From positions 30,529,464 to 30,593,463 of the forward strand of contig OZ020490.1 of the NCBI GenBank assembly GCA_963971405.1: a stretch of 64,000 nucleotides of DNA. Reading direction: 5' to 3'. The notes beneath the pieces were generated by a model. The model ran no database searches. It was given only the letters and a program-made list of their open reading frames with translations, and had not been told where the DNA came from. A program made the translations under genes and the position numbers. How positions within the stretch are numbered: the stretch's first letter is position 1; every line of letters begins with the position of its first letter. The stretch is from Psococerastis gibbosa. Taxonomy: Eukaryota; Arthropoda; Insecta; Psocodea; Psocidae. Shown here piece by piece: positions 4,490 to 59,200 of this stretch.

Positions 4490-7036
4490 TAGGGTTGCCA
4501 GATTCGCAAAACATAAAAACCGGACAGGGAGCTAATGTGGCATTCTATCTAGTGTAAATTTTTATAAAAAAAGGTCATTTTATCTAGTCTAAAATTCAGT
4601 GAATTTTGAGGAACTTGTTATCATAGTAACTGGCAAGCTAGCCTACCGCTTAAATAAAAATAAAAAAATGACAGTACATAGAGTAGACTTTTTTAATTCC
4701 TGTATGCTGTAATTATTTTATTACATTGTATGTAGGCTACCATACATTATTACATACAATACAGTTACAGTAAGACATAATTAGATATGCATTTTAATTT
4801 TTAAGCTCCGTATTTATCACTTGACGCAGTGGCTTTCAGGAGAGCTTTGTTTTCAGCAATGGAAGCTGCGAAATCTGTGCAGCTCTCTTCAATGTTAAAA
4901 AAAACGCATAGTTCACTCTTTACTGTATTTATGGAAAGACGATTTCTTTCGTTGGTCCACAAGTTACCCATGACGCTAAAAATTCGCTCTACGTGAGCGT
5001 TAGATACCGGGACGCTCAGCACATATTGTAGTACTTTCAGTAAGTTCGGTGCACTTTCTTCTTTTTTAAAAAATTCACACCACATTTCCAGAGATGATAC
5101 CTCAAGGGATTTCAGAGACGGTAGAACACTTTCAAGCGCCGACAGCTCACTGTAAATATTGTCTGATGCCAATTTGTCCTTCCAAGGGGAGGCCATCCAT
5201 ATATCAACTATTTCGTTCAAGTTAGGGAAGGTGCGTACTAAATCCAAGCAACTGTAGAGTTTGAATTTGCTTGAATCATATGGGTACCATTTTTCCAAAT
5301 AATTTACAGCTCTGTGATAAGCATTCAAAGCTTCTTCCGTAAATTTGTCAATTTTAGTTTTTTCGATGTGACCTCTCCTGAAAGCCATTTGCACCTTCAT
5401 TCCAAAGAAATTGTCTCTTATTTTTTTCAGAAGTTCATTCCTGAACTTGACCATAACGTAATGTAAGTTGAATGCTGTCGTAGTCTTTTTTTCCAGCATT
5501 AGGAGAACTTCTTGAAATGCTGCCATCAAATTATGAATAAAGTAAAGATATAGTTCATGAATAGTAGGATTTGATTCACTCGCTAACTGATCTTCCTGGT
5601 CTTTCAGGAAGTCCCAAATCACTTTCGGGCAGTTCTCCTCACCCTTCTCCAAAAAATACATTTTTATTGGTTCCCAGCTTGATAGGACCCTGTCAACGGC
5701 ACGAAATAAGCTAAGCCATCTCGTTGGTACATGCCTCAGAACTTCATGGTAGTCACTTTCAAAGAAACTGAAACACTCCTTAAGCTCTTCTCTCCTTTTG
5801 GCTGAACAAGAAAACTCACCAAATATCTTTGATACGAGATTTTCAACATCCAGTGAAATTACTTTTAGTGCATATTTTGCGCAGTTATGAAAAATATGAT
5901 CGTGACAATGTCCAGCAAATATATCAGCATTTTCCTCTGACGCCAGTTTTTGAAAAACGGAATTGTTTACCCCAAAATTTACGGATGTATTGTCCGCACC
6001 GTAGGCTGTCACCATTTTCCAAGACAATTTTGATTTCGTTAGTACTTCACACAACTTTTCTTTAACGGACCTAGAATCCTCAAAGGGATCTTCATAGAAA
6101 TCCAAAATCTTGTGACGAATTCCATTTGGCATAAAATATTGTGCCACAACGGGATAAAATTTTTTGTTTCCCTTATTGGAGGCGTCTGTAGCCACAGAAA
6201 ATGGTATGTTAGTTTTTAAATCTTTTAGAGCAATCTCCATTGCATGCGGGTAAAGGACATGGTTTACAATAGCAGAGCATTTTGTGCGTCCCCCAGTCAT
6301 CTGCTTTACAATATCAGAATCTGTTATAACCATCTTCATAACCTTTGTGTAGCAATCTTGAGCCAGGTAAGAAGTGTGATGTTTCACGCTGTGAAACACT
6401 TCAGTAATTTCGGCTATGCTTACCTTTTCTTTCTGCATGGTATCTTTTTGACGCACAAAAAATTTTTCCATTCTCAGTGATTGTGTTCTAGCGGCTTCAG
6501 CTTCCATGTGTTTTTTTCTATTTCCATGATTTTTAACCGCCTTTAAGCCATCAAACCCAATTGTGAAATTGTTATGACATAACTTACAGAAAGCACTTGT
6601 TTCAACTTTGCTGTCCTTTGCCAGCCACGAAAAGTCTGCCTCCCATTCCACATTGTAGTGGCACATCCTTCTCATTTTTTTGTTGGCATTGCCCTTAACT
6701 TGGAATTCACTATCCCTTTCCCTATCCATTTCTACTTTAAAATGTAATAACTGGAATGATTGTTGTTATTTACTTATTATAAAAGCAGACGAAGTTATGA
6801 AACTGAAGCAGACGCCACTAGCCATTCGCGCGATAAATAGGTTGGCTAACTTGTTTTGGCGGCTAGCATCAGATTTTTAAAATTATTTCGTTCTATCCTC
6901 AAGTAAAAAAAATTTTTTTCACACTCAAACGAAAAAACCGGACAAAGCATTGTCCGGTCAAACATTTATTTTTTCACCGGACAGAGGTACGAAAAACCGG
7001 ACTGTCCGGTCAAAAACCGGACATCTGGCAACCCTA
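4490..7036 (-). mobile_element. Complete hAT DNA transposon
   Basis: The 2547-bp element has identical 14-bp inverted ends, TAGGGTTGCCAGAT at 4490-4503 and its complement at 7023-7036. The 8-bp GTTCTATT at 4482-4489 and 7037-7044 is the target duplication. The right subterminal region (6930-7025) is packed with ACCGGACA/TGTCCGGT motifs, probable transposase binding sites. It inserted into the 3' part of a tRNA-headed SINE, whose body continues from 7037. Intact ends, intact duplication and an intact reading frame together suggest recent insertion. Confidence 0.92.
4801..6729 (-). CDS. hAT transposase
   Basis: A single uninterrupted frame of 642 codons occupies most of the hAT element. A BED-like zinc finger sits at the N terminus (C48, C51, H68, H74). 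The RNase-H-like core shows the expected acidic residues: D182 in 'VATDASNKG', D246 in 'YGADNTS', and E581 in the C-terminal dimerisation (hATC) block 'VPVSNAHVERIFS'. The conserved 'PTRWLS' block is at about 335-340. The protein would bind the element ends in the nucleus and catalyse cut-and-paste movement. The start at 6729 was chosen because it is the first ATG and gives a complete zinc finger. No frameshift or stop is present, so the enzyme may be functional. Confidence 0.93.
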   Translation of the reverse strand: MDRERDSEFQVKGNANKKMRRMCHYNVEWEADFSWLAKDSKVETSAFCKLCHNNFTIGFDGLKAVKNHGNRKKHMEAEAARTQSLRMEKFFVRQKDTMQKEKVSIAEITEVFHSVKHHTSYLAQDCYTKVMKMVITDSDIVKQMTGGRTKCSAIVNHVLYPHAMEIALKDLKTNIPFSVATDASNKGNKKFYPVVAQYFMPNGIRHKILDFYEDPFEDSRSVKEKLCEVLTKSKLSWKMVTAYGADNTSVNFGVNNSVFQKLASEENADIFAGHCHDHIFHNCAKYALKVISLDVENLVSKIFGEFSCSAKRREELKECFSFFESDYHEVLRHVPTRWLSLFRAVDRVLSSWEPIKMYFLEKGEENCPKVIWDFLKDQEDQLASESNPTIHELYLYFIHNLMAAFQEVLLMLEKKTTTAFNLHYVMVKFRNELLKKIRDNFFGMKVQMAFRRGHIEKTKIDKFTEEALNAYHRAVNYLEKWYPYDSSKFKLYSCLDLVRTFPNLNEIVDIWMASPWKDKLASDNIYSELSALESVLPSLKSLEVSSLEMWCEFFKKEESAPNLLKVLQYVLSVPVSNAHVERIFSVMGNLWTNERNRLSINTVKSELCVFFNIEESCTDFAASIAENKALLKATASSDKYGA

Positions 7037-16430: not shown

Positions 16431-16589
16431 ATGGTTGGCATGGGGGATCACCAGGCCGACATAATGTTCGTGATAGAGGGGACCGCCATCAACGGGGCCT
16501 ACCTCAACGACCTCAAGTCCAACTACATCATTCCTACGTTGGAGTACTTCAGCCAGGGAACGATTGAGGATCGCGATTATGTTTGCGAG
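16431..16589 (+). CDS. MED25: MED25 exon 1 (VWA start)
   Basis: 53 codons from the first ATG, ending in phase 0 at GAG|GTAACT. '[16 protein letters not shown]' is the first strand of the VWA fold, as in other MED25 proteins, where 'VIEGTA' replaces the metal-binding D-x-S-x-S. Confidence 0.93.
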
Positions 16590-19500
16590 GTAACTAAAAT
16601 AACTACTTACAGTGCTACGGTCCACGGTAAATTACACTAATTTGAACCATGCGTCATAGTTTGTTATGATGTTTTTCTATCCGAACATGAAAAAAAATTT
16701 AGTAACAGTGACGAATATCCTACAATATGGAAGTACAAATGTAAAATTACCCTTTTGCCACGGTTATGTAACTAGCATAACAATTTTCATATAGAACTTA
16801 TAGTTTCTTATAGACCCCAAAAACCCCCTAACAATACGAAAATGTATCATTTGCAAGATTCTGTTGCTGGCATAATTATTGTAGAGTATGCTCAGTGATA
16901 CGTTTGGAGGGCAATTACATTGCTCAATGGTTTGATTGTTTATGAATGCAAAATACAATTTTTATGTTACTATTTTTCTGCTAGACGACAGGTTCAATTT
17001 AGTGTAGTTTACCAATAGTGCTGCGGCAAACTTGGTAGTGTTCACAGCGTTGGCAGGGGAACATGGTGGGACATGATAACGAGGTTAGGCAATCTAAACG
17101 CGTGTCGAGTCCTGGTCACCTCCGCATTAATCGTGTGACTTTACTATGTTCCCCAAGCCAACGGCCTTACCATGTTGATTCCATTAGAGCAGAGCATGTT
17201 TCAAACTGTGGCAACTTGGTAGTGTGCACAGTGTTGGCAGGGGAACCTGGTGGGACATGATAACTCGCTTAGGCAGTATAAGTCGAGTCCTGGTCACCTC
17301 CGATTTAATCGTGTGACTTTACCATGTTCCCCAAGTGGTTCGGAATCCACTATAATCAGGAGGTCCACCCTGTTAGCCAACTCCCCTTTCCCCGAGGTGA
17401 AAGAGTCTGCCCTTAGGGTGCCTCAAGTTAACAAACAGACTCACTCCCCCCGCCAGGCTGACAGGGTTGCTTAAAGCAGAAATGCTGAAAGCAGGCGTTG
17501 GAAACAACAACAACTATGTTCCCCAAGTGGTTCGGAATCCACTATAATCAAGAGGTCCACCCTGTCAGTCAACTTCCCTTCTCCCCGAGGTGAAGGAGTC
17601 TGCCCTTATGGTGCCTCAAGTTATAGTTACAGTCATAAACGGACTCACTCCCCCCGCCAGGCTGACAGGGTTGCTTAAAGCAGAAATGCTGAAAGCAGGC
17701 GTTGGAAAACAAATAAGCAAAACATTCGAGTATAGAAACGAACGGTTTATCAATTTTTTAGTGTTTTTTTAAAAATATCAGCCTACCTAGTTTAGTGATG
17801 GGGAGGGCTTCATAGTTCTAACTCTGCTATGTTGGCTCAGTAATAGAACAAAAGTCATTATTTATTTAAAATGAAACCAGATATTTTGACTTCCTATTTC
17901 AGGAACAGTGAAAGTTCTGCTGCTAAAGAGTAGGCAGCCCCTACGTGAATATAGCTCAACAATCGCATACTTGTATTTCACATCTAAGACTGAATAATTT
18001 TAATTGTAGTCAAAAATGTTTGTTATTTATTTATACCTTTGAGATTTGAGAACTACTAGTAATTGTTGTAAGATTTCCTGCATTGCATAGTACCTTGTGA
18101 TAAATGGTTTATTGGTTTACAGAGCACCAGTACACTCTATGGGCTAGTAGTATACCACGCGGCGGATGTGATGCCCCGAGGTAGCAGTGACTGTTATGGC
18201 CCATATTGCAGCCCGCAGAGACTACTCGCTACCTTAGATAAATTGGAGTAAGTTATTATTATTCTATAATTTCAATCCCCAAAATTGAGCTAGCCCAAAA
18301 TAAAAATAAATGTTCTGAGATCGACTGACAACTTTCCGAAAATTTCTTCACAACTTTTCATTTCATGACCCCCTGATCCTAAAACCACCCTCCTTTCAAA
18401 ATGTTATATTATATACTGTATATACAGTATATGTATGTATGTATATACAGTATGTATATCGATTTTAGGAAACACTAACTTCCGTAAATATTATTCGATT
18501 TTGATTGAACTTGGCACAAAAATTGATCATACAAATGTCTTGATCGAGTTCGTTAACCAGCTAGATCCACTGTTTAGTTTCAAGATGGCGGCCGATTGAA
18601 ACCTTATAAAATTCATAACTCAGTTAATATTGGTCTTACCATTTAAAGTTGGCGTCCAGTCAAAGCATAGCCTGCCAATCGAAATAAGCAGACTGGCATT
18701 CCTATGCTTATACATAGGATGCAGTATTTCAGGGCTTTGTGATTTTTTTCATGAAATCACAGGATTTAAGTTACAAAATATTTGCGTCCCACTTTCGGAT
18801 TTTGGCCACTTGGTAGCGCTTGGGTGTTTCCCGCACAAATTTAAAAATTGAAATGTGGTAGTCAATATCAATTTAATGAGTCATTTCATATTAATAAATC
18901 TATAATGACCGTAATTTAATGAAACCAACTAGTTTATTGTATCATTCGCACACCTAGGCCTATCTACAGTACAATGGTCAATGAATATTAAAAGAAAAAA
19001 AGCTCGTGTATCCTACGCAGTATGTATTAATGTATGGAAATATCACATACAATACTTCAAATTATGTTCCAACATGAGTTTAGAAAGAGTATCTACTGTA
19101 CTTTACGTTACGGCAAGCATTTTAAACCAAAACCCTGTATGGGGAAAGTGGCAAAAAGTCTTTGCGTCGTGTTAGCGTACTGTCACAGTAGACCATGTAG
19201 CCTATTATGAACATTTTCACAACCCCTTTTATTCAGACAGGTAGTTCCTCACTAACGGAATACGGTGACACCCACCATGTTCCCTTCCTTTTTACTCTGC
19301 AAGCCATGGGTGACAAGTGAAAACTCAAGGTGAGGCATTTAAAATACAGCATAATGCAATAACATTAATGTAATAACAAATATACAGTAATTTACAGTGA
19401 AGAGGAAGGAACACAACTAATATTTTTGACTTTTTTCCTTCTGGTAGAAATTGTCTTGCATTCAAAGTTTCCACTCGAATTTCCTTGCTTCAAATTTTCT

Positions 19501-22500
19501 GTGGCGGGACGAGACGTCTCCTCTGCTCCTGTTCCTCAAAATCTGTTGCCCTAAAAATGTCTATAATATTAGTCTACCGATACATGCCAATTAAAATAAG
19601 ACAACATATTTTGTTTTAGTTAATGTATGCTGCAGTGGACCCATAGAGGGAAGTCACTGTCACAAATTATTACTTCGCAAGGCCCATGCATGCAAAGGCT
19701 TAAAAATGCTTCTCGTAGGTTGTACAGTAACTAGTTGCACTTGGTGTGTTTGGGGAGTGTGCTAAGTGACTTAATTTGGCTACAAAACGGCAACAATGCA
19801 ACACTTAAAGAAGAATTAAAGCTATTGTGGGTTTAATATAAATTTCTCACTTACCTTTTAGATGTATTATTGTAGGCCTACTGTACTTTGCATAATGTGT
19901 AGCATAGTTTGCAGTTTTCAATCCAACAACCGAACTTATTTTATTAGTAAAGTAGGTATTGCTGTAGAGATTGAATCAATAAATAATTTTTATCATTTTT
20001 GTTTATCAAAACCCACTCATTTCTGCTGCGTTGTTATTGTTTTGAAAATGAATGTTGACTTCAAAACAGGCAGCCAATAGTAGGCCAAGTTTTATAGAAC
20101 GTTCGAATACACTCACAATTGTTTCTTAATAAATTAATTTGATTGGTTAAAACTGGGACGCAAATATTTTGTGACTCGGCTCATGTGATTTTCCTATTTG
20201 GAATCACAGACGGCCCTATACCGACTAGCATTCTATAGTAAATATTATTCTATGAGTCAAAGTGAAAATAATTTGATAAGTGAAGTGGTTCGAAATTTGG
20301 AACACAAGAGTGTTTTGTGTGTTATGTTGTGGTCGGGAAAATAATGAACTATTATGTTTTATTTTTTATTACATAGCGTAGGTGGCGTAGAGGAAAAGTA
20401 GGGTCTGCGGAATCTCCCTAAACCTTATCGGCCAGAGCCGAAAGGGATTTTTTAATTATTGCATTATGATATCTACTAGTTCTAGTTTTATGACTGTTTG
20501 ATTGCAAGTAATTAGAAAAAGAAAAAAAAAATGTTGTATCATTTGATTTTTTACTGTAAAGCAATATTGGAATAATATAATACTTACTTACTTATCTGCT
20601 TTCAGGCTTGTCGGAGGTAAAGGGGAGAGCCACGCCAACATAGCAGAGGGGCTGGCGACCGCGCTGCAAGCCTTCGAAGACCTGCAGCAGAAGAGAGAAG
20701 GCACCAACATTTTAACACAGAAACACTGCATTCTCGTATGCAACTCACCTCCGTACCTGATGCCTGTCATGGAGTCTTCCACGTACCTGGGAAACACCAC
20801 TGAGCAGCTGGCAGCCACGCTTAATGATGTGCGTATTTTTTATTGTAAAATCCCCCCAGTAACTAATACGACACCAAATTATTGTGCATGTAGGCAGGTG
20901 CCTTGAGCGCCTGAAATTATCAATTCTCTCATTTAATCTCTCATATAATCTGGCTCCCTTCTGGACGGATGAGTTTGAAACTGACCTTGGCGAGTTGGGA
21001 GTCTGTAGATGGTGGAGCGTTGTACAAAACCGAGATGAATGGAGGAGTGTTGGTGAGCAGGCCACAGCTCATCAAGAGCTCTAGAGCCAGAAAAAGAAGA
21101 AGAATCTGGGTCCGTTATTAGGGCAGGTGCACCAAAAAAGAAACCATTACAGCAGAATCTGCTTTTGACTTGTGCACCAACCCATTAGCTGCAATGTATC
21201 TCTACAGGTCTGCTGCGTAACAATTGCCGTACAATCTGATTTATCTGCTTTTGTGCTGCACTGAACTCTAACCTATTCAAATATTTTGCAGAGAAATATT
21301 AACTTGTCGATTCTCTCGCCAAGGAAAATTCCCGCCATCTTTAAATTATTTGAAAAAGCTGGCGGCGACCTGAGTCAATGTCAAAACAAGAACTACGCCA
21401 AAGACCCGCGGCATCTCGTGCTGCTCAAGGGCTTCAGTCTCAAGGAGCGGCCCATCAGTCCGACAGTGTTGCCGATTCCGTCGTTGCCAAGCCCGCTTTC
21501 TAATGTCACAAATGTTGGCTCTCCTATGCCAACACAACCCCCCGTGTTCCGTGCTGCACCGCCTAATAATCCCGTAAGTTATCGCTCTGCAAGGTTCATA
21601 GTTCTATGCACAATAGGAGAGATAAGATAAGAGATAGATTCGCTAGAATTGTTTTTTTAAATTCGGATTGCACCTGCCACCTCTCCTATGACTAGGGTTA
21701 CCAGATGTCTAGGATTCAGACTGCCGTCAGGAACGTCAAGAATTGCCGGGTGAATGTCGGGAATTTCACGAGAAACATGCAAATGGAAAAATGGATTTCG
21801 TAGCGTTAAATTTTTTAATTTAATTTTAATTCAAAATTTGGCGGGAACTTTATTAAAATATAAAATTGCCAATTTGCCAAAATAAAATTTTATTGACTTT
21901 AATTCTGGCATGACAGTTTTTAACTGTGAAATATACAAGTAAATTAAGACTAGATATAAATATTGACTTTTTTTATAGATATAGATATTAGGTATAATGT
22001 GACACTTCAGAAGGACACTTGTCCTGCTATGTCGCATGTTTCCTATGGCCGTGTTCATAAGCGAAATTGTCAGTAACCTGTCAGACTTGATGGTCTGATG
22101 AGATTGTTGTAAGGCGGCTATTGAGTTGCTTATGAAAGCCGTAGGTTAGTGGATAACTATCTGGACTTTCGTAAAGAAAGGCACGGGTCTCATTCTGCCG
22201 CCTATTCACCTCTGTCTAATTATAAAGAACCGGTCCAAGTTTACTCGAACATGCTTTCCAATTTATAAATTAGTAGATAGACGTAATGTTTAATTTCATA
22301 GTAAATAATTTCCCTATGGTTAAATTTAAAATCCCTCGAGGGGGGAGAGGTCCACCTCAATATATTAAAAACCCCTTAAAACTCAATTGCGTATTGTAAC
22401 AGTAGTAACAATGCACATGGCACGTAATGTATTGGAGCGTGAATTTTCTATAATTCAAAAAATAACTTTTGGCACAGAACCAAATATTTTTTTTTGGGAA

Positions 22501-34500: not shown

Positions 34501-37500
34501 AGCCTAACTGCTGGTCGGCAATCGCCAGACAATTTTATTCTATATTTGGAAACTCTACTGAGTTGATTTATGTATAGGTACCGTACATCTACCATGATTG
34601 AACAATATGATGTGACAACACTAGTAGTTACCTCGGAAAAGGTTAAAAAATAAAATAAAAAACGCCATGGTCATACCGAACACTCATAAAGGGCATTTTG
34701 TCTTTAAGCTAAGTTAGTTAAGAGCTATGAATAACTCCTGGTATTCCGCTCGCAATGGTGTATTTTTTTGTGAGATTCCACAGAAGTCATGACAATAATT
34801 ACCGTAATTTTTGACAAAATGCACGATTTATTTATTAAGTATTTATATTTATATCTTTCCTGCCCTCAACTCTCCTACTCAACAATTAAAACACAATACC
34901 ACCGTTTCTAACCAAAATTTTTAATTAAATACAGCAAAGTGCCTATTTAAATAAAATCTATTTAAAATTAAAATCTATTTAAACAAAAAGTTGCCAAAAT
35001 CATTCTGCCTCTTGAAGAAATCTCCAAAGTCACCATAGTTGTTGGAAGCCTTCAGCCCGTAGAAGAAATGAAATGAGAATGATTTCGGCAACTTTGGTGA
35101 TTTTTTCAAGAACCCCCGAAGTCCCTAACTTTGTTGGGGCCCTGTGCAAAATGAATGTGTCCCTGTTGGCCGATACATGTAGTCACCTATATAGGTGAAT
35201 ACATGTATCGGCCAACAGGGACACATTCATTTTGCCCAGGGCCCCAACAAAGTTAGGGACTTCGGGGGTTCTTGAAGAAATCACCAAAGTTGCCGAAATC
35301 ATTCTGCCTCTTGAAGAAATCACCAATGTTGCCGAAATATTTCTGCCGTATGTAAAAGCCTGTAAATAGGAGATTGTTCAATGTTAGGTTCTATTTGTTG
35401 TCGGGAATGGGGTTCATTTGTGGCGTCATTTTGTAGATGGCAGCACCAGTTGCAATGATATCAAAGCGTTGTTTTTTTCCATAAGCCTCAATACTATTTT
35501 AAAATGATTTTTAATTACGTATTATTTTAAAGTGATATTTTTCTATAAATCATGGAGGATATATATATTAAATTATATGCAGCGAAATAAGGTCCAGGCA
35601 TAGTAAAAATATTATAAAAAATATTAAAATAATTAATTAGATGCTAAGAGTTTAGTTTTCGCATGCAAACGGCGGCCATTTTGAATAATATGGATATCGG
35701 TTTGTCGTCAGCGAACCTAGTGACCAAAACTGTCCCTACAGAACCTCATTACGGATGACTGTAGTAATTCAAGCAATTACCTGTTATGCACGAGTGAGAG
35801 TCAGTAATGTTCTACTTTTAATAGGGAGTAATTATGTATATAGTATATATCCGGAGATTTCTGTGGATGATAGTTTTGAACGTATTATTTCTAATTATCT
35901 AGATTATAATGTGAGAGAGAGTCAGTTCTACTTTCAATAGGGAGACAATTATGTTTATTATGAACATCGACGCCCAGAGCCAGAGTATTTCTCCCAAATA
36001 AATTTGCGCACAAAAAAACTTACCTGGAGCCGGAGTGGCTGAGTGTTGGCCATTAACGGCAACGACGAAAGCAGCCAGGGATACCAAACACAATTGGAAG
36101 TGGAACATGTTTAGGCAACAGATTGTTCTAGTGTGCTGTTCACGGATTCAGAATCCGCTTTTATACCCAGCTCATTAAAAATTATCAGTGCAATAACACT
36201 GTGACATTTTAAAATTGGTTGTATAAACAGTATATATTGGTAATATTAATATCATAACAAGAAATAATGAGGTCTATTATTAGGGTTTTTATGGGCCTAT
36301 TATTATAGCAACTCATATAACTTATGTACATTCTGCTTATTAATAATAATTACATTGGTTGTAAAAGGGCAATTTGGCCATATAATGACATTGTTACCAG
36401 AAATTAAAATGCCTAATATTTGGTTATTATGTGCTTTGGCCTTGAATTTAATGAGGACCTATGAAATATTAAATTTGTGTGCGTTCAACACTTTATGATT
36501 ATACAGGGTTTCTTCATTCAAATTTAGGCTTAAGTGAGGCCTAAAGAGGGCCGTGTTCTTTTGCAAATCACATTTAACAGCTATTTCGGTGATATCTTTA
36601 TTATCATATAAGAGAAAAACCATCAGAAACGTAATATGTAAGAAGCACAACGAGTCAGCCCGTACAGTATATACAGGACATGTACCGTGGTGGTACGGAC
36701 TCTGACATTCACCCGAAAGGTTGTTGGTTCGAGTCCCACACTGGCTACATTTTCTGGCTATGCTTCGGAGGGCATGTAAAGCAGGCGGTCCCGGGTCATC
36801 CTAGTTGAGTGTAAGAAAGGGCTTTATAGCCCTAACTCGGCTAGCTTGGCTTAGTAATAGAAACAATAGAAAGTCCTTATTTATTTATATATCTCGAAGT
36901 AGGTCGTTATAGAATTAGCTTATAGCAAAACCGGTAAGACTAAAGGGGAATTGTGACCGTATTTTATTTATTGATGCAAAACTTTGAGATTGAACAATAA
37001 TGAAGCTTGTACGAGTTAACACGGGAAATGCTTTTTGTTATCTTTGGTTTATCTTCAGTGGAACTGCGTACACTCCTTAGATTGTATCTCGGAGGCTGAG
37101 TTGTTGCTGAGGCGGGGATTCCACCGACCTGCTAGTGCTAAATACAAATACGGTGACGTGGTAACAGACATTCAACACTTAGGCGGGGTTTCCACCGACC
37201 TCGCATTGCAAAATGCAAATGACATTGACGGAAATGTTTGTTTTACTCTATGCCATAGTTAAAATTGATCAATGATCATAGAGTAAAATCACAAACAAAC
37301 TAAAATTAAAAAATGGCTTCATGGGATATGTTAATGTTAATTTTAATAGATTTCTATAAAAAGAAAAATTCAAATTTCCGTCAATGTCATTTGCATTCTT
37401 CAATGCGAGGTCGGTGGAAACCCCGCCTAAGTTTTGAAAGTCTGTTACCACGTCACCGTATTTGTATTTAGCACTAGCAGGTCTGTGGAATCCCCGCCTT

Positions 37501-41028: not shown

Positions 41029-44000
41029 ATTCCATATAGGAGAGATGGTACATTCGAGCGCACCAAAAATATTTTTCTAGGCCTGGGCCTACTAGATGCC
41101 ACCTCTCCTATGACCAGCTATTGAACGTAGCAGACCTCAAAAAATACTTTTGGCACACTCGAACGTCCCACCTCTCCTATATAAAACTCTAGTTCATTGG
41201 ATGATTGATTTGTTTTGCAGGCGGGTGCCGCTGGTATGGTGGTGCGTGAGAGACAGACCATCTGGCAAGGCGTGCTGGAGTGGACTGAGAAGGGTAAGAC
41301 TCCCAACGAGAACCACAAGATTACGAAACAGGTGCCCTGTCAAGTGTCCTGTGCCAAGGTCGGCGAACCAGACCTGTAAGTTATTGATTTTGTTTAAAAG
41401 TAAGTTATTATGTAAGCGATGAATCACGAGTCGGTCAGCGTCACACGGGTAATTCAACATCGTTTGCACTGCGCATGCTCGTGGACTGCGCACGTAAATC
41501 GTACCACAGAACATCGTATATCTATTAGAGTACTCATCGTAGCCTACCATTATTAGTACAATTAGTTTTTTTCTACGTCTGCACCTAATATGGCGGGGAT
41601 TCCACCGACCGGCTAGGGCTAATAAATACAAAAACGGTGACGTGGTAGCAGATATTCAAGACTTAGGCGGTGTTTCCACCGACCTCGCATTGCAGAATGC
41701 AAATGACATTGACTGAAATGTTTGTTTTCCTGTATGCCATAGTTAAAATTGATCAATGATCATACAGTAAAATTCAGAATGCGCTTTTATACCCAGCTTA
41801 TTAAAAATTATCAGTGCAATAACACTGTGACATTTTAAAATTGGTTGTATAAACAGTATATATTGGTAATATTAATGTCGTAACAAGAAATAATGAGGTC
41901 TATTATTCGGGTTTTTATGGGCCTATTATGTACATTCTGCTTATTAATAATAATTGCCGTTTAATTTTGGCATTGGTTGTAAAAGGGCAATTTGGCCATA
42001 TAATGACATTGTTACTAGAAATTAAAATGCCTAATATTTGGCCTTGAATTTAATGCTTAGGCTTTAAGTGGCTAGCTCTTATTTATACTAAAATAATGAA
42101 TTGTTATATTGCAGAAAAGCGGATTCGTGGCCCCAGAAGTTGCTAATGCAGTTAATGCCGAAACAGTTGATCGGCAACATTGGAGGCGCGCACCTAAAGA
42201 ACTCTACCTCTGTGCTGTTCCATCCACAGCCGTGTGAGGCCCTGGATTCGCTTACTAGAGTTATGAGCTCCGGATTTGTAAGTAGATAGTAGTAACATTT
42301 GGTTCAAAAGTGTGGTGTTTGTATTTTAACATTGGGAAAATCGCACGCAGCCCCGATTGGTCTCGTATCTTCACCGGTAGGGGATCAACACGGCTGGCGG
42401 CCATGTTGCCGAGCACAACATCCCAAAGAAGGGGTGGCTACGTGAAAGTTTCCTCTATCAGTTGTTTTTTTCTGCGATGTGTGGGACGTTACTACTGTCG
42501 CATTTTTAAATTACTGCAGCAATTGTGTTGAGCGAAACACCGAGTTTTTTCGTTTTATTAATGTATGCTTATGGAATAAACTGTGTTTCGTTCGTTTCAA
42601 TTTTTACTGGTCCAGCAGTAAGCTGCCGTATACGTGCAAACTTGGTTACAGTCAGTTTCGATAAATTAATGATAATGCATTTTATATTTAAAATAATTAT
42701 TTATTATAATATACTAGAAATATATAACTAATAATTAAAGATTTATGAGTAAGACGACTCCAGTAAATAGTAGTAGTAGTAGTAGTAGTGTTCGTCGGGT
42801 TAATAACGACTTAGGCCTCATATTTGGGCCCATAGAGCGACCCCGACTTGACTGTCCTATGCCAGCCCATAGGACAGTGGACCTCCTGATTATAGTGGAT
42901 TCCGAACCACTTGGGAAACACAGTGAAGTCACACGATTAGTTCGGAGGGGACCAGGACAAGTCCTACCATGTTTCCCGACCGGCACTGTGCACACGACCA
43001 AGTTATCTGCAGCTTTGAACCTGTTCTGGTCCGCTGGATTCAGCTTGGTATGGCGGCCGGCCCTCCAGTAAATAAAAATATTTATGGAAATGTATATACC
43101 GGTGTAATTTTTATACATATGTTCCTGCCACGGCCCTTATAGCACTCGCACAACAACGCGCGTTAGTGTATTGTCCTTTTCATGCCCTCTGCAATACTTA
43201 ATTCTCCTAAGAGGTATGACACGTTCCCCTATGGGATAATTAGGAAAGGCGTTATATAAGGAGATGAATTGGGTCAGACGGCTTGACTAACTTACTTATA
43301 AATGTGCCTAGTATGCTTATCTTTATTAAAATACTACTAATGGGATGGCAGACTATACTACATGATCGGGAAGTTATGTAAACATGGTGACGGAAATTCT
43401 TCTAATCTGAACAACTTGTCGGTAAAGTTGTAAAGTCTTCTCTGATTATATGCGCCTGAAATGGTGAGGTAAAATGGGCTAAGGCGCTCTTTCCATTGAC
43501 CGGCTAGGGCTATTTCCCAAAACGGTGACGTGGTAGCAGACATTCAAGACTTAGGTGGCGTTTCCACTGACCTCGCATTGCAGAATGCAAATGACATTGA
43601 CGGAAATTAAAATTTTTCTTTTTATAGAAATCTATTAAAATGTTTGTACTTAACATATCCCATGACGCCATTTTTTAATTTTAGTTTGTTTGTTTGTGAT
43701 TTTACTGTATGATCATTGATCAATTTTAACTATGGCATCGAGGAAAATAAACCTTTCCGTCAATTCTGCAATGCGAGATCGGTGGAAACGCAACTTAAGT
43801 CTTGAATGTCTGCTACCACGTCACTGTTTTTGGAAATAGCCTAGCCGGTCAATGGAATGGGCGCCTAAGGGTCCCTGTTTCATATGCTATAAATATATGC
43901 CATTTTCTCTTTGATATGTACGGTTGAAAGAAGTAATTGGAATACTTTGGCGTCTGGCCGCCATCTTGGATTTTACCTGCCTCGGATAGTGACGGAGAAT

Positions 44001-47000
44001 AGGCCTATGTCTAGTTGACTCATTTTGATTGTAGTGAAAAGTCATTATTTATTTATTTATTCTTTTTTTTAGACAGCCGAAATTTAACAGCAGGACTATT
44101 GTATTATTTACCATTGATACTAATAATTCTTAATTTCGGTGCCTACCTATCTTCTTCTGAGGTCTCAATCTTAAAGATTGGTTAGCAGCAACTCCCTACA
44201 TCTTCCTCCAGCTCTCTCAGTCCTACGCCTTCGTCAGTTCTTGGTACGTTCGAGCTCCTGCGTCCTCCTTCAGTTGATCCATGAATTCTTTCTGTTGGTT
44301 TCTTCCTGTTCTCAGTGGTGGTGTGTACCTATACAGATAAATGCTGTATTGTAATGAATAAATAAGAAAGCATGTAGCAATTCTTTGCACTTGAACGGCA
44401 CTTTGCTGCTGGGTTGAGTGGGAAATAACGATATATGTTTTTAGGTTAGTCTTAATTTAACATTGGGGCGCCTATGTATTACTGTATGATTGGCAGGCCG
44501 GATGTGTCCACTTCACGTCGCCCAGTCTCTCGTCATGTGATATCAAAGTCCTAATTCTGTTGTACACGGTTGAGAAGCAAGCCTACCTGGGATTCATACC
44601 CAATGACCAAACCATGTTCGTTGACCGTCTCAGAAAGGTTATTCAGGCACAGAAGAACAGCCAAGCAATGATACGACAAAACCAGGTAAGTAGTCAATGT
44701 TTTATGTTTATTTAAATGTTCATACGGGTGTGAGAATGACTCGTTCCCATACTTTGCTAACACCTGTTACAATGTCAATGGTAAACATGTCTGAGCTTGC
44801 CCATTGGCACTTGTAGTCGGTGTGGGCTAACATCGAGGAATCAACAGTTTGCCAATGGCTACAAAAAATTCATTCGGAACCAATACCAATAGTGTCCTAA
44901 AACCATTGGTTGTTGGTAGGGCATAATTCTATGGGCCACACTATAAGTAGGCCTAAGTCCATAAAAATCACATCCATAATTATAATTATCAAAAAAATGA
45001 GATGAGAAACCTACTTGGAACTCAAGAGAAGGGTCAAGAACGGAGAAGATGTTGGGAAGAATTGCTGCAAGCCTGTGCCTTAGAGTAAATTGACTGCTTA
45101 TGTTGCGTGATCGACTCAACGATATTAAAATAGCATAGATGGAGCCAAGCCGTGAGATAAACATCGCTGAAAGAAGTGAAAGGTAGGGGAAATCGGTCAA
45201 CATGGGTTAAAGCGCTTCTTCGTTGTAGTGTTCCCAAAAAAAGGAAACAGTGAAATGAAATGAGTAACATCTTTTCATCTTTATATTAGGCGAGCTTTAG
45301 CCCCGAAGGGCTACTCTACCAGCTAACCTATTTTAGTTTAAAAATTATTTTTCTTCAAATTAATAATATACCATTTTTTTCCTTAAAAAATAAAAATGAA
45401 AATAAAAAATAGGGATAATAATGGAACTGTAGCCCGATCAGACGATTTTAATACCGGGGTTAATATAATTACATGTCACGTGCTGGTATTAATTCAATTA
45501 TTTAAAATAAATTAACAGTAAATTTCAGAATATTTTTAATTTTTGATGTTGGTAATCGTCGCATGAGTGCCAAACGCAGAAAATTCAAATTGTGTCTATT
45601 TAAACAATTAAATGGTCTTCGGCTACATTTTTGGTGAGTTTCTTAATTTTTTCTGTTATAGATTTAGACAAATTATTTATAATTCTTAATATGTATGTAT
45701 GTATGACTTTCAAGGTTGTTAGTTCGAGTCTCACACTGGCTACATTTTCTGGCCATGCTTCGGAGGGCATGTAAAGCAGGCGGTCCCTGCTCATCCTAAT
45801 TAAGTGTAAGAGAAGGCTTTATAGCCCTAACTCCGTTAGTTGGCTTAGGAATAGAACAACAAAAAGTCAAGATTTATTTATTTATTTTATTCATATTAAT
45901 TCAAAATTAAAACTTTTTTTTTATTTCTAGGGCGATATGTGTTTATATTTGCTATTTATATTTGCTACCACAGCGTCGCGACAGTTCAGTTCTTCAGTAT
46001 TGCCAACATCACAATTTAAAAAATTCTGAAATTTACTGTTCATTTATTTTTAAACAATTGAATTACCATCACGTGACATGGCATTATATTAACCCCGGTA
46101 TTAAAGCCTCCATGATTGGACTGCAGGGATAGTGGCAAATAAAAAACAAAAGAACAATTTAACAGGCGCAGTATGTTTCAGCGCATTTAACCAGTAATCT
46201 TAATAACTGACTTTTGGCTGCATTAGGCTTATGGTGAGTACCGCCTGCTTACAATAGGAAACTATTGTTAAGTGACTGAGCTCCGGATGACGATCCAGCC
46301 CGCCTGGTCGGTCTGATTTGGCGTCGCGTCTGTACCCCTATATTGTCATGGCAACTAAGAATCTCTGCCTGGTAGAGATTTCCATAATTAAATATTACTA
46401 ATATAAAAATAATTTGTTATATTTCTTTCGATAATATAAAAAAATATTGTATTTTAGAATTAAAAAAGAAAAATTAGTAAGCAAAATATGTCATGGACGA
46501 AACCGAACGAAACACGTTTGTCGGTGCTATTATTAATTTTGTTTTGTGAAAATAGTCAAGTAGTACTTAATGCTGTAAGTCATCGCTGCAAGATTGTGAA
46601 TAAAGAGAGAGGTACTGACGGATGCTAACTGTTCAGGTGCCTACATCTCAACCCGGAGCAACGCCGAGCATTCCCTCTGACGGTGGGGCACCGTCAGGTG
46701 TCATCATGTCGCAGACCAACACTATGGCAATGGGAGGGGGCCAAATCTCACAGGTACAGTTAGAATTATATATAGGAGAGATAGGACATTTGAGCGTGCC
46801 AAAAATAGTTTTTTAATCCTGGTACGTTTTTTCAATGGTTGGTCATAGGAAACGTGGGATCAGGTGGTCCCAGCATTAGAACAGCCATCTATTTTATTAT
46901 ACATATATACCCACGAGGTGAGCCCTATCGCTGTCTAGTAAGTTTCCTAGCCGACAAGGGTTGCCACTCAGTTTAGTTAAGAGCCAATCGGAGTACAAAG

Positions 47001-55339: not shown

Positions 55340-55707
55340 TACTACATATTATGTTTGGTCTATTTCGACCCACAACTACCCCTCCCCCAAACGGGCTGGA
55401 TCCGTCCCTGGCCACCATTCTCAATCTTTTTGCCAAAACGCAGCAATTTCTCTTTATTTTCCAGGAATTGTCCGGAATGAAACTGATCACAGCAGTTCAG
55501 AAGATTCTTTTCTTTTATTTGCTTGATCCGATTCATGCGAGAGAGGCTGCCTCTGACCCACTTGCTACATGTTTGCTCCACAACTGTTGTGAGTCTGCCG
55601 ATCGATTTTCCAACCTAGTTGAGAATACGAGATGACAGCTCCTACTCTTTTAATAGCGTTAATTGTCGCGGCCGGTCAGAATTAGGCTATTTCTATAGGT
55701 ACTGAAA
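55340..55707. other. Upstream region of the THAP gene
   Basis: 55370-55412 is an inverted hAT-like end (CCCAAACGGGCTGGATCCG). No clear promoter motif. Confidence 0.35.
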
Positions 55708-56218
55708 ATGAGCCATAGGTGCGTTGTGGCCCGTTGCCGGACACTTGAAGGCATGGGAATAGTTCTGCACCGCGTTCCGCATAATCCCCGAATTATCGCT
55801 GAGTGGGCTCTTCTATGTGGTTTGCCGAAATATCACAGCAATCATTTCCTTGTGTGTGCCAAACATTTTTCATCCTCGGAATACACCAATGGACATTTTA
55901 AAAAGCTTAAGAGTGGTGCTAGGCCATCACTGTTACTGCCCGTAGACCCTAGCCGCGTCTTTCCACGTCGTACTACCCGTTACATCCCTATTGCTCCCAT
56001 ACCTAGCCCTGAAGATAGCAGCAGATCATTGAAGGCACTCAAGTCAGGCATTTCCAACCACGCACATTACAAAGACCATAGGATATATTTCAAACCGGTG
56101 TCCGCCAATGAAGACTTGGCTACGAAACTTCAGCAGGATGAATGTGTTTTAAAGAGAAATCTGATACTGGGAGTTGACGATGTGCTGAACAAAACTCTGA
56201 CAAAGAAGCCTCCTAATG
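55708..56218 (+). CDS. THAP-DDE gene, exon 1 (THAP finger)
   Basis: First ATG after an in-frame stop; 170 codons plus one base, donor AATG|GTATGT. Contains the complete C2CH finger and a basic linker. Confidence 0.88.
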
Positions 56219-59200
56219 GTATGTTGTTATTTTCTTCCCTTTGCCAAGGCGGTGTTTCCACATACGTCAATCGTCAATGAGAAATATGAAATTGAAGGAC
56301 ATTTCAATTTTCAATTGTTAAAATTCATCAATGATCATAGAGTAAAATCACGCGTGCAAACAATAACAAACTAAAATGGCGTCATGGGATATGTTAAGTA
56401 CATACATTTTATATTTTATTGTTTATAAAACAATTTTCTTCCATTAAACAGATCGGTGAAGGTCGATCTTACTTCGGATCTCCTACTATGAGGTTCTGTA
56501 GGGACAGTTTTGGTCACTAGGTTCGCTGACGACATCTAATTAATTCTTTTAATATTTTTACTATGCCTGGACCTTATTTCGCTGCATATAATTTAATATA
56601 TATATTCTCCATGATTTATAGAAAAATATCACTTTAAAATAATACGTAATTAAAAATAATTTTAAAATAGTATTGAGGCTTATGGAAAAATCAACGCTTT
56701 GATATCATTGCAACTGGTGCTGCCATCTACAAAATGACGTCACAAATGAACCCCATTATTAGGTTTTATTAAAAATAATAAATGTACGAAGAAAACAAAT
56801 ACAAACAAAATTTCAAAAAACAAATGCAAACAAATTTCAAAAATTTGGCGCATACGCTTCAATAGAAGAAAAGTGTCTATAGTTGAAAAAAAAACATGTG
56901 GAAACACCGCCATCAATGAAAAATTGAAATGTCCTTCAATTTCATATTTCTCATTGACAATTGACGTATGTGGAAACCCCGCCCAAAACAGGCACTAATG
57001 ATTGTTGATGGTTGATTCTCTCCAAGAGACGTTGCCGCTTCTCCTGACAAAAATGGCAAAAGTTAATGGGGCCTTCGGAAGGCCCATTGTGGCTATCGAT
57101 GGATGCCCACTGTTTCTGATTGGTTGTACTTCAAGTTTCTGCAAGTCAAGTTCCGATAAGAAGCTATGGCCAATGGCTCCAAAAAAGTTATGAAATGAAA
57201 TCTTTCAAAGAACGGACGGTCAAGACTAATTTAGAATTTTTTATGGCCAATTGAGATGCCTATTTTCAAATGGGTCTATCTCAATTTTTTTCGAATATGA
57301 GTTTTTGATGACATTGGATTACTATACATAGACATAACATAAAATTCCCATGTTAAGTGCTCCTCTAAAGTTAGACTTATTTTTAAGTCAATCAGCGTCC
57401 GCCATTGTGATCACGTCTGTTACGCCCTAGGCCTAACACAAGAGCATATGCTCTTCTTGGCCTAGGCTCAGGGCTGAGGACAGACGGCAAACCTCTGTTG
57501 TGTAAATGTTATATCGGTCGTCACGTATGTCCTTAGCCATAATGTATAAATCACGAGCCTTGGGTTCGAAGAATTAGAGAGTTTGGAGACTATGGATAGA
57601 GTCTATAGAGTCTAGTGAGACAGAACTGATTCACCATGTGAGTTGATACACGGTGCAAGTAGGAGTAAGCTCCTATGGATGTATGAGTAAGTACGTTATC
57701 ATGTAGCCCTTATGTAACTAAGTTGCCCCCCCCCCCCAATTCATTATGTTGTCCCTTGTCCCTTAAGTGCTTAAGTTGTCCCTAAGTTATTATGTGGTAT
57801 TAATGTTAAGTGTATTAATATAATATAAGGTATTTGGTACCATCCTATAAGCTTATATATAATTCCCCTCTTATAAGTCCACTCTGAATACTCTAATCTA
57901 TAGAAGGTCCCAATTAGTGGTATTCGGAGTGTGACAACGTCATTCACGTGCGGCGTGCCAACAATAACAAACATGGCTTCCACATATTAGTTGCGAGTTA
58001 AGGGGGATAAGGAATTGAGAGAATTGGATTTCTAGTTATCCTGAAAAGTAACGTCAAACGGAGATAGACCCATTTGAAAGTAGGCAACTTAATTGTAGTA
58101 TTATGAAAGTTACGGATTTTTTAGGGGAATGGGTGGAACCTGAAAATTATGTCACAGTGAAGATGGAGGAGGTTGACATGACTGATGGCGTCATCCTAAG
58201 TGACGATGATTTCCACCAACAGACAGTTGAAAAGAGCTGGCCTGAGGGCGTTGATCCTGAGGGTTATTGTAAACAAAAGACTGACGGTCTCTCAACAAGT
58301 TTTACATCCAAAGAAAATGGTGAGCATAATTAATTGTTTCCACAGTATTATTTCGATACTTGCGGTACTCAGTGTGGGCCTAATCTCAAGTTGTATTGTT
58401 ATAAACATGATGTTTCTATATATATATATTATATCTCTACTTCGGAAGAAAAATGACACAACTCTAAATTATCCATCAATTTACAGAAATTGAATTTTTT
58501 TAAATAATGAATTACCTGACAGTTCCGTCCAGGCGTCCAATAAAAAACGGCACAACTGCCTTCGCGCGGAAAATATACATTAACTCCGTTTTTCTAGCAA
58601 AATAAAATATTTTAGCGTTATTAAGTCGAAATCGACAAGTTTTGAGCTGTCTTTTTTCTTCTGAAGTAGCGATACATCGTCACCCTAAAATCAGAAGGGA
58701 GTAACCAAAATTTTTGGCGAAATTGAGTTTTGATCAGATTTAGTGACCTTTTGAGCTCTACCTTTGCAATTTGCATATGCAGAAATAAAAACCAGACGTG
58801 AACTATAACTTATAAGGCTGAAATTTTTGATTTGGAGGGCGTATCTGACTGTTTGTAAGAGCAAAAGCATCTTTAAACGCTACTATTTCAAAATGCCTTT
58901 TTTTATGGTACGCCCTTCTGACTTTATGGTGAATATATGCTGTACGCTACTTCATGATGATGGCTTTGTTATCTTCCATACTATTCTGCTAAAGCCGCTG
59001 GGCGGTTAGTACCGAAAATACACATTTTTAGTATCCTTAGATCCCCGTACTCATGTCCTATTTAAAGGATTTTAATTGAATGTGATTACATGCCCGTCAG
59101 CCGCGTCGTTCCTCTGCTAATGGAGGTAAGGTACTCCATAGGTGCACCAACGTCAGGGAAAATATTTCTTATTAGTCTATGTCGACTTTGGAACCTTATC

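Follow-up and report, generated by a model that had tools for sequence, protein, structure and literature searches.

A rearranged member of a large gene family for predicted secreted repeat proteins, nested in MED25 of the barkfly Psococerastis gibbosa

A spliced reading frame antisense to MED25

The question raised by this locus is whether a short, spliced reading frame on the strand opposite to a host gene is itself a gene and, if so, of what kind. The window analyzed here is a stretch of 64,000 nucleotides from chromosome 7 of Psococerastis gibbosa (C15:30529464-30593463), and coordinates given without a contig name refer to it. An earlier note had proposed that an undescribed secreted-peptide gene lies antisense in an intron of MED25. 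The nesting is borne out by profile matches to the VWA and PF11232 domains of MED25, which lie on either side of the locus on the plus strand; stop codons are run over by two of these seven matches. The features of the host gene and of the nested locus are as follows:

16449-44655, plus strand: host gene MED25, overall extent
16449-16691, 18111-18248, 20580-20837 and 21283-21435, plus strand: profile matches to the MED25 VWA domain
41248-41376, 42086-42334 and 44497-44655, plus strand: profile matches to MED25 PF11232
36158-36165, minus strand: TATA box (TATAAAAG), located from the sequence, at -57 relative to the ATG (36108)
36024-36108, minus strand: coding part of exon 1, with 28 signal-peptide-like residues and the first base of a Gly codon that is completed in exon 2
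35360-36023, minus strand: intron of 664 bases (GTAAGT...CAG), with the donor from 36023 and the acceptor CAG ending at 35360
35409-35747, minus strand: insertion of ∼340 bases in the intron, skipped by the paralogue alignments listed
35253-35359, minus strand: coding part of exon 2 including the stop, Gly and 34 residues
35191-35305, minus strand: left palindrome arm, the end of a sense repeat unit followed by the inverted insert (17 residues in X paralogues)
35076-35190, minus strand: right palindrome arm, with the 23-residue insert in sense and, behind it, the repeat unit in inverted orientation
34975-35075, minus strand: stranded exon tail (27 residues) behind the stop and the palindrome, placed by sequence comparison
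41772-41926, minus strand: further copy of the promoter stretch (36146-36300) at 96.8% identity, with the TATA box but no exon 1

The TATA box, ATG, donor, and acceptor were all found on the minus strand, and splicing in frame gives the 63 residues that had been described, in which one KR separates two FGNxGDFFK units. The exon 1 product is hydrophobic and signal-peptide-like by direct reading of the models, and the signal peptide claimed for it stands as a candidate. In a genome search, relatives were recovered for exon 1 (E value 7.6e-13, chromosome 1) and for exon 2 (5.7e-10, X chromosome), and the first 30 codons of exon 2 have 92-93% DNA identity to X paralogues. A chance open frame is ruled out by the existence of this gene family, and the window locus belongs, as a genuine though rearranged member, to a large family of predicted secreted repeat proteins. 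Elsewhere in the window, a 654-aa open frame (4804-6765, minus strand) carries the hAT dimerization domain PF05699 of a transposase, and another open frame (55699-56277, plus strand) carries a THAP domain (PF05485).

Size, structure, and constraint of the family

The genome searched comprises 409,210,807 bases in 68 contigs, and chromosomes 1, 2, 3, 7, 8, and X correspond to C1, C2, C3, C15, C19, and C20. Relatives were recovered for both exons, and family members occur on all six of these chromosomes. A composite repeat query gave at least 122 matches, which were merged by hand across gaps of up to about 300 bases into at least ∼52 repeat-type exon-2 places, some of them degenerate. Among the matches listed, these fall on chromosome 7 (20 places, window included), X (17), chromosome 1 (9), chromosomes 2 and 3 (2 each), chromosome 8 (1), and contig C41 (1), and 18 of the 20 on chromosome 7 form one cluster at 31.82-31.90 Mb. 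This cluster (C15:31819000-31897100, ∼18 repeat-type places listed on one strand) is 1.25 Mb from the window, and the first units bear a Cys in two of its members (FYMRLNELCNNNTVNDRDFF).

A cysteine-rich sister type, which has a related exon 1 and one recognizable MRQNDFAHSRDYFK stretch, accounts for at least 86 further exon-2 places, 74 on X and 12 on chromosome 8. Its X array (15.61-15.72 Mb; C20:15610000-15722000) consists mostly of two opposed runs with steps of ∼1457 bases. No more than 150 candidates were scored in either exon-2 search, which makes these counts lower bounds. Among the matches listed, 91 of the 138 places of the two types are on X, and the family is limited to contigs C1, C2, C3, C15, C19, C20, and C41. 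Stellate and Slx are X-amplified gene arrays, and the barkfly family is like them in having tens of similar X copies, as in the cysteine-type array; unlike them, the barkfly arrays encode predicted secreted proteins.

Mitochondrial sequences were noted separately. The mitochondrion is contig C68 (17,084 bases), with the order M-C-I-Q-nad2 ..., cox3-G-A-R-F-nad5-nad3-N-S-E-H, which fits the translocations of nad3 and trnN, S1, E, M, and C in two Psocomorpha barklice (PMC3632521). Nuclear copies of COX1 are present at C14:11085363-11086704 and elsewhere, with 43 matches in total, one being the mitochondrion itself.

One search pattern applied to the fetched loci gave 24 gene models (that of the window copy included), a few of which have a frameshift, run off the end of the locus, or were assigned an incorrect acceptor. 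TATAAA stands exactly at -57 from the ATG in 21 of the 24, the exon structure is shared, exon 1 ends in a common codon phase, and complete precursors are 98-237 aa long. With a broader exon-1 search, 54 matches were obtained, 32 of them with TATAA at -57. No complete exon-1 model could be made for 23 of the 54: 14 on chromosome 1, through a stop or a lost start or donor, and 9 in the X array, which were missed because their donor, GTTAGT, lies outside the pattern used. In the fetched cysteine-type copies of that array, the donor is GTTAGT in 9 of 12 and GTAAGT in 3.

Exon 2 varies in length and in how it ends. One chromosome 7 member has ten consecutive units, nine of the 16-residue type, and each of two chromosome 2 copies has several. 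Among 34 exon-2 ORFs, three, all on chromosome 7, finish naturally at the unit's own end (...QKGFGDFGNFGN, then Y or F, then F and the stop), with a last unit that has no KR. In ten others, TAG replaces the Lys codon of a KR, and RQ continues in frame behind it (C1:14319771, 14325160, and 14344659, and seven X copies near C20:5.78-5.81M). The remainder have other tails or frameshifts; with these and the TAG stops, truncation is common in the family.

The repeat units are under purifying selection. The pN/pS ratio is 0.29 among 34 distinct 11-residue units and 0.35 among 34 distinct 14-residue units, in pairwise comparisons that share ancestry and hence are not independent. Differences are commonest at the third codon position (first, second, and third positions: 758/337/1212 for 11-mers and 748/802/1287 for 14-mers), against 122/151/115 in an intron control read in arbitrary phase. 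Constraint on exon 1 is mild (pN/pS 0.62 over 11 representatives), and between the window copy and a copy at 3.58 Mb on chromosome 7, pN exceeds pS. The cysteine type has a pN/pS of 0.94 (10 distinct sequences of 13 full-length, 14 fetched) and looks neutral, though an internal stop breaks only 2 of its 86 frames; it may represent a second fate of the repeat-type precursor.

The repeat had been put forward as belonging to no recognized family. Three of four family proteins had no match in Pfam, and the fourth had three, all below the cut-off; among PDB chains, the repeat type had no match and the cysteine type had one, at E 0.98. No relative of the repeat family was found in viral contigs, nor any relative in papers searched for eleven motif strings, nor such a family in the literature on psocid neuropeptides and on silk or gland secretion (both literature searches covering openly accessible papers). 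The family is apparently undescribed. The window gene is not unique, and the discovery is the family rather than the window copy.

Predicted processing of the precursors

Our favored account, which we give somewhat better than an even chance, is that this barkfly gene family specifies precursors of secreted, tandemly repeated peptides and that the window locus is a member of it that has been rearranged and truncated. In intact members, a TATA promoter precedes a signal-peptide-like exon, which a single intron separates from an exon made of units such as those of 13 or 16 residues. The precursor would enter the secretory pathway and be cut after the basic pair, and many acidic, aromatic peptides of 11-14 residues would be released, with Gln first and -GDFF last (predicted product, pGlu-QGSNNFGDFGDFF). 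In the window copy, an inverted duplication in exon 2 introduced a premature stop, so that a single KR site and two units remain. The many gene copies would make secretion by a gland or into a body fluid likelier than a role as a brain neuropeptide.

FMRFamide-like and apidaecin-like animal precursors have a signal peptide and tandem similar units with basic pairs, and their unit number varies. The barkfly family is like them in its tandem units, basic pairs, and varying unit number, and its first exon may encode a signal peptide. It differs in that the common barkfly units have no amidation Gly before KR, and in that it occupies at least ∼52 gene places, vs. one or few for known multi-copy precursors.

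The units themselves bear on cleavage. The relatives carry KR-delimited units, of which 174 were picked from the 34 ORFs; 24 are the insert (QTTYIDENGHIH) and were dropped, leaving 150. With a unit pattern that itself required a preceding R and Q, K, H, or P as the first residue, a basic residue is at the cleavage position in 142 of the 150 and a dibasic KR or RR follows the unit in 124, and Gln comes next after the basic site in 134. Variants at the cleavage position (MR, MK, YR, and QR) also occur, and the putative site is thus not invariant.

It is possible, if rather doubtful, that the repeats are left uncut and form short structural secretion proteins (of silk, egg cement, or mouth fluid), in which the alternation of acidic-aromatic and basic stretches would drive self-assembly. 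The blocks are regular and of low complexity; F, G, D, and N abound in them, and K or R recurs at intervals. Many tandem gene copies with TATA promoters would suit a heavy gland output. The monobasic MR and MK variants show that KR is not essential, the unit's own end is not the terminus in most precursors (31 of the 34 ORFs), and the sequence of a structural repeat protein that is never cleaved would be much alike. The frequency of Gln directly after the basic site, however, suits an N-terminal pyroglutamate, and both the three chromosome 7 precursors that finish in a unit without KR and the shortness of the complete precursors argue against a structural protein.

Origin and state of the window copy

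Exon 2 of the window copy is interrupted by a palindrome of 230 bp (35076-35305), with 115-nt arms that are 97% complementary and no spacer. Each arm holds one orientation of a 12-residue unit, and the left arm supplies the NPRSP and stop with which the reading frame ends. In the right arm, the insert has 75% DNA identity over 73 bases to X paralogue sequence coding for 24 residues. Most of the tail stranded behind the palindrome is 77-94% identical to paralogue exons, with the highest values on X among the matches listed. The presence of insert and unit in both orientations within the arms indicates that the exon was once a longer repeat exon, and comparison with the paralogues points to an inverted duplication that brought the stop and stranded the tail. 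This origin corrects the earlier note. What had been taken for a second exon copy does repeat the 13-residue core (34987-35043), but it is the tail of the same ancestral exon, and the early end of the 63-residue frame is due to the stop brought by the inverted duplication.

A transposon hairpin was considered for the palindrome and ruled out, as its content matches X paralogue coding sequence and it was therefore made from the gene. A genome search with 75 bases of the palindrome core returned only the two window arms, a weak result given that the coarse first stage missed the 75%-identical X copies. In a scan of 313,600 fetched bases, one other near-perfect palindrome was found (C3:46580079-46580387); it has 154-base arms, and a degenerate exon 1 of the family follows closely downstream.

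When the remaining exon-2 coding sequence is compared with four X copies, each comparison gives five non-synonymous and one synonymous codon differences, and three of the amino-acid changes fall in the FYMRQND motif. Constraint on it appears relaxed, and the window copy is probably a truncated, decaying paralogue. It keeps its TATA, ATG, splice sites, and open frame, and may still work.

Still, we judge it unlikely that it works as a gene whose short product carries a single KR site and yields two peptides. In favor of this reading, besides these intact signals, exon 1 is 96-98% identical to three chromosome 1 copies, while the introns are only 88-91% identical. Compared with the four X copies, the order is reversed: the upstream stretch has 83-94% identity and the intron 91-93%, with exon 1 at only 74-81%. 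This mosaic is most simply explained by gene conversion between members of the family, which may also account for the excess identity of exon 1. Against a working copy also stand the stop made by the inverted duplication, with the exon tail stranded, the three residues changed within the best-conserved motif, and a first-unit pN/pS of 0.57 between the window copy and other copies, compared with 0.37 among the other 17 (two of them frameshifted).

Traces of other rearrangements are found around the gene. The paralogue alignments listed reach ∼35748 and resume at 35399-35408, on either side of the intron insertion, and the inserted repeat is also present at 56488-56757. The second copy of the promoter stretch sits between the PF11232 exons of MED25 and is probably the remnant of another family copy. 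Among the matches listed in the X clusters, the promoter stretch also occurs beside intron sequence without exon 1, an arrangement that suits decayed copies; the stretch may alternatively be a dispersed repeat.

It is improbable, in our estimate, that the palindrome acts at the RNA level, with the 115-bp stem of a transcript from this locus diced into small RNAs that silence a family much of which is X-linked. The predicted transcript folds strongly (385 nt, -239 kcal/mol, z -26, with none of 100 shuffles as good), of the 210 21-mers in the palindrome, 14 have perfect matches in other fetched loci of the family (∼29 sites), and X carries 108 of the 136 21-mer matches. In Drosophila simulans, autosomal hairpin loci (Nmy/Tmy) silence the related X-linked Dox genes (PMC10292708), and the window locus is like them in being an autosomal inverted repeat related to an X-amplified family. 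It is unlike Nmy/Tmy in lying inside a gene-like unit and in that close similarity to its relatives spans just 36 bases of each arm (the insert part being 75% identical to X). Perfect 21-mers in the same loci were, moreover, obtained for ∼105 of 300 random window segments, and such matches are expected from any inverted duplication within this family.

Chimeric reads can produce back-to-back inverted repeats, but an assembly artefact is scarcely credible here, since mismatches at 3 of 115 positions show that the arms diverged after the event. The assembly has ∼55x HiFi coverage and a QV of about 60, according to its published description (PMC12559846).

For the biology of these insects, a self-silencing hairpin, if this were true, would extend to another insect lineage what is known from flies for X-linked families; a gene family would be kept in check by an inverted copy of itself, and X-linked conflict might have a part in this. 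With the favored reading, in which the window copy is a truncated member of a family of secreted peptide precursors, the finding is a large orphan family of predicted secreted repeat peptides, mainly amplified on X, in an insect order that has seen little molecular work. Its cysteine-rich sister type keeps one recognizable repeat, and the family offers a natural series of precursor expansion, diversification, and decay.
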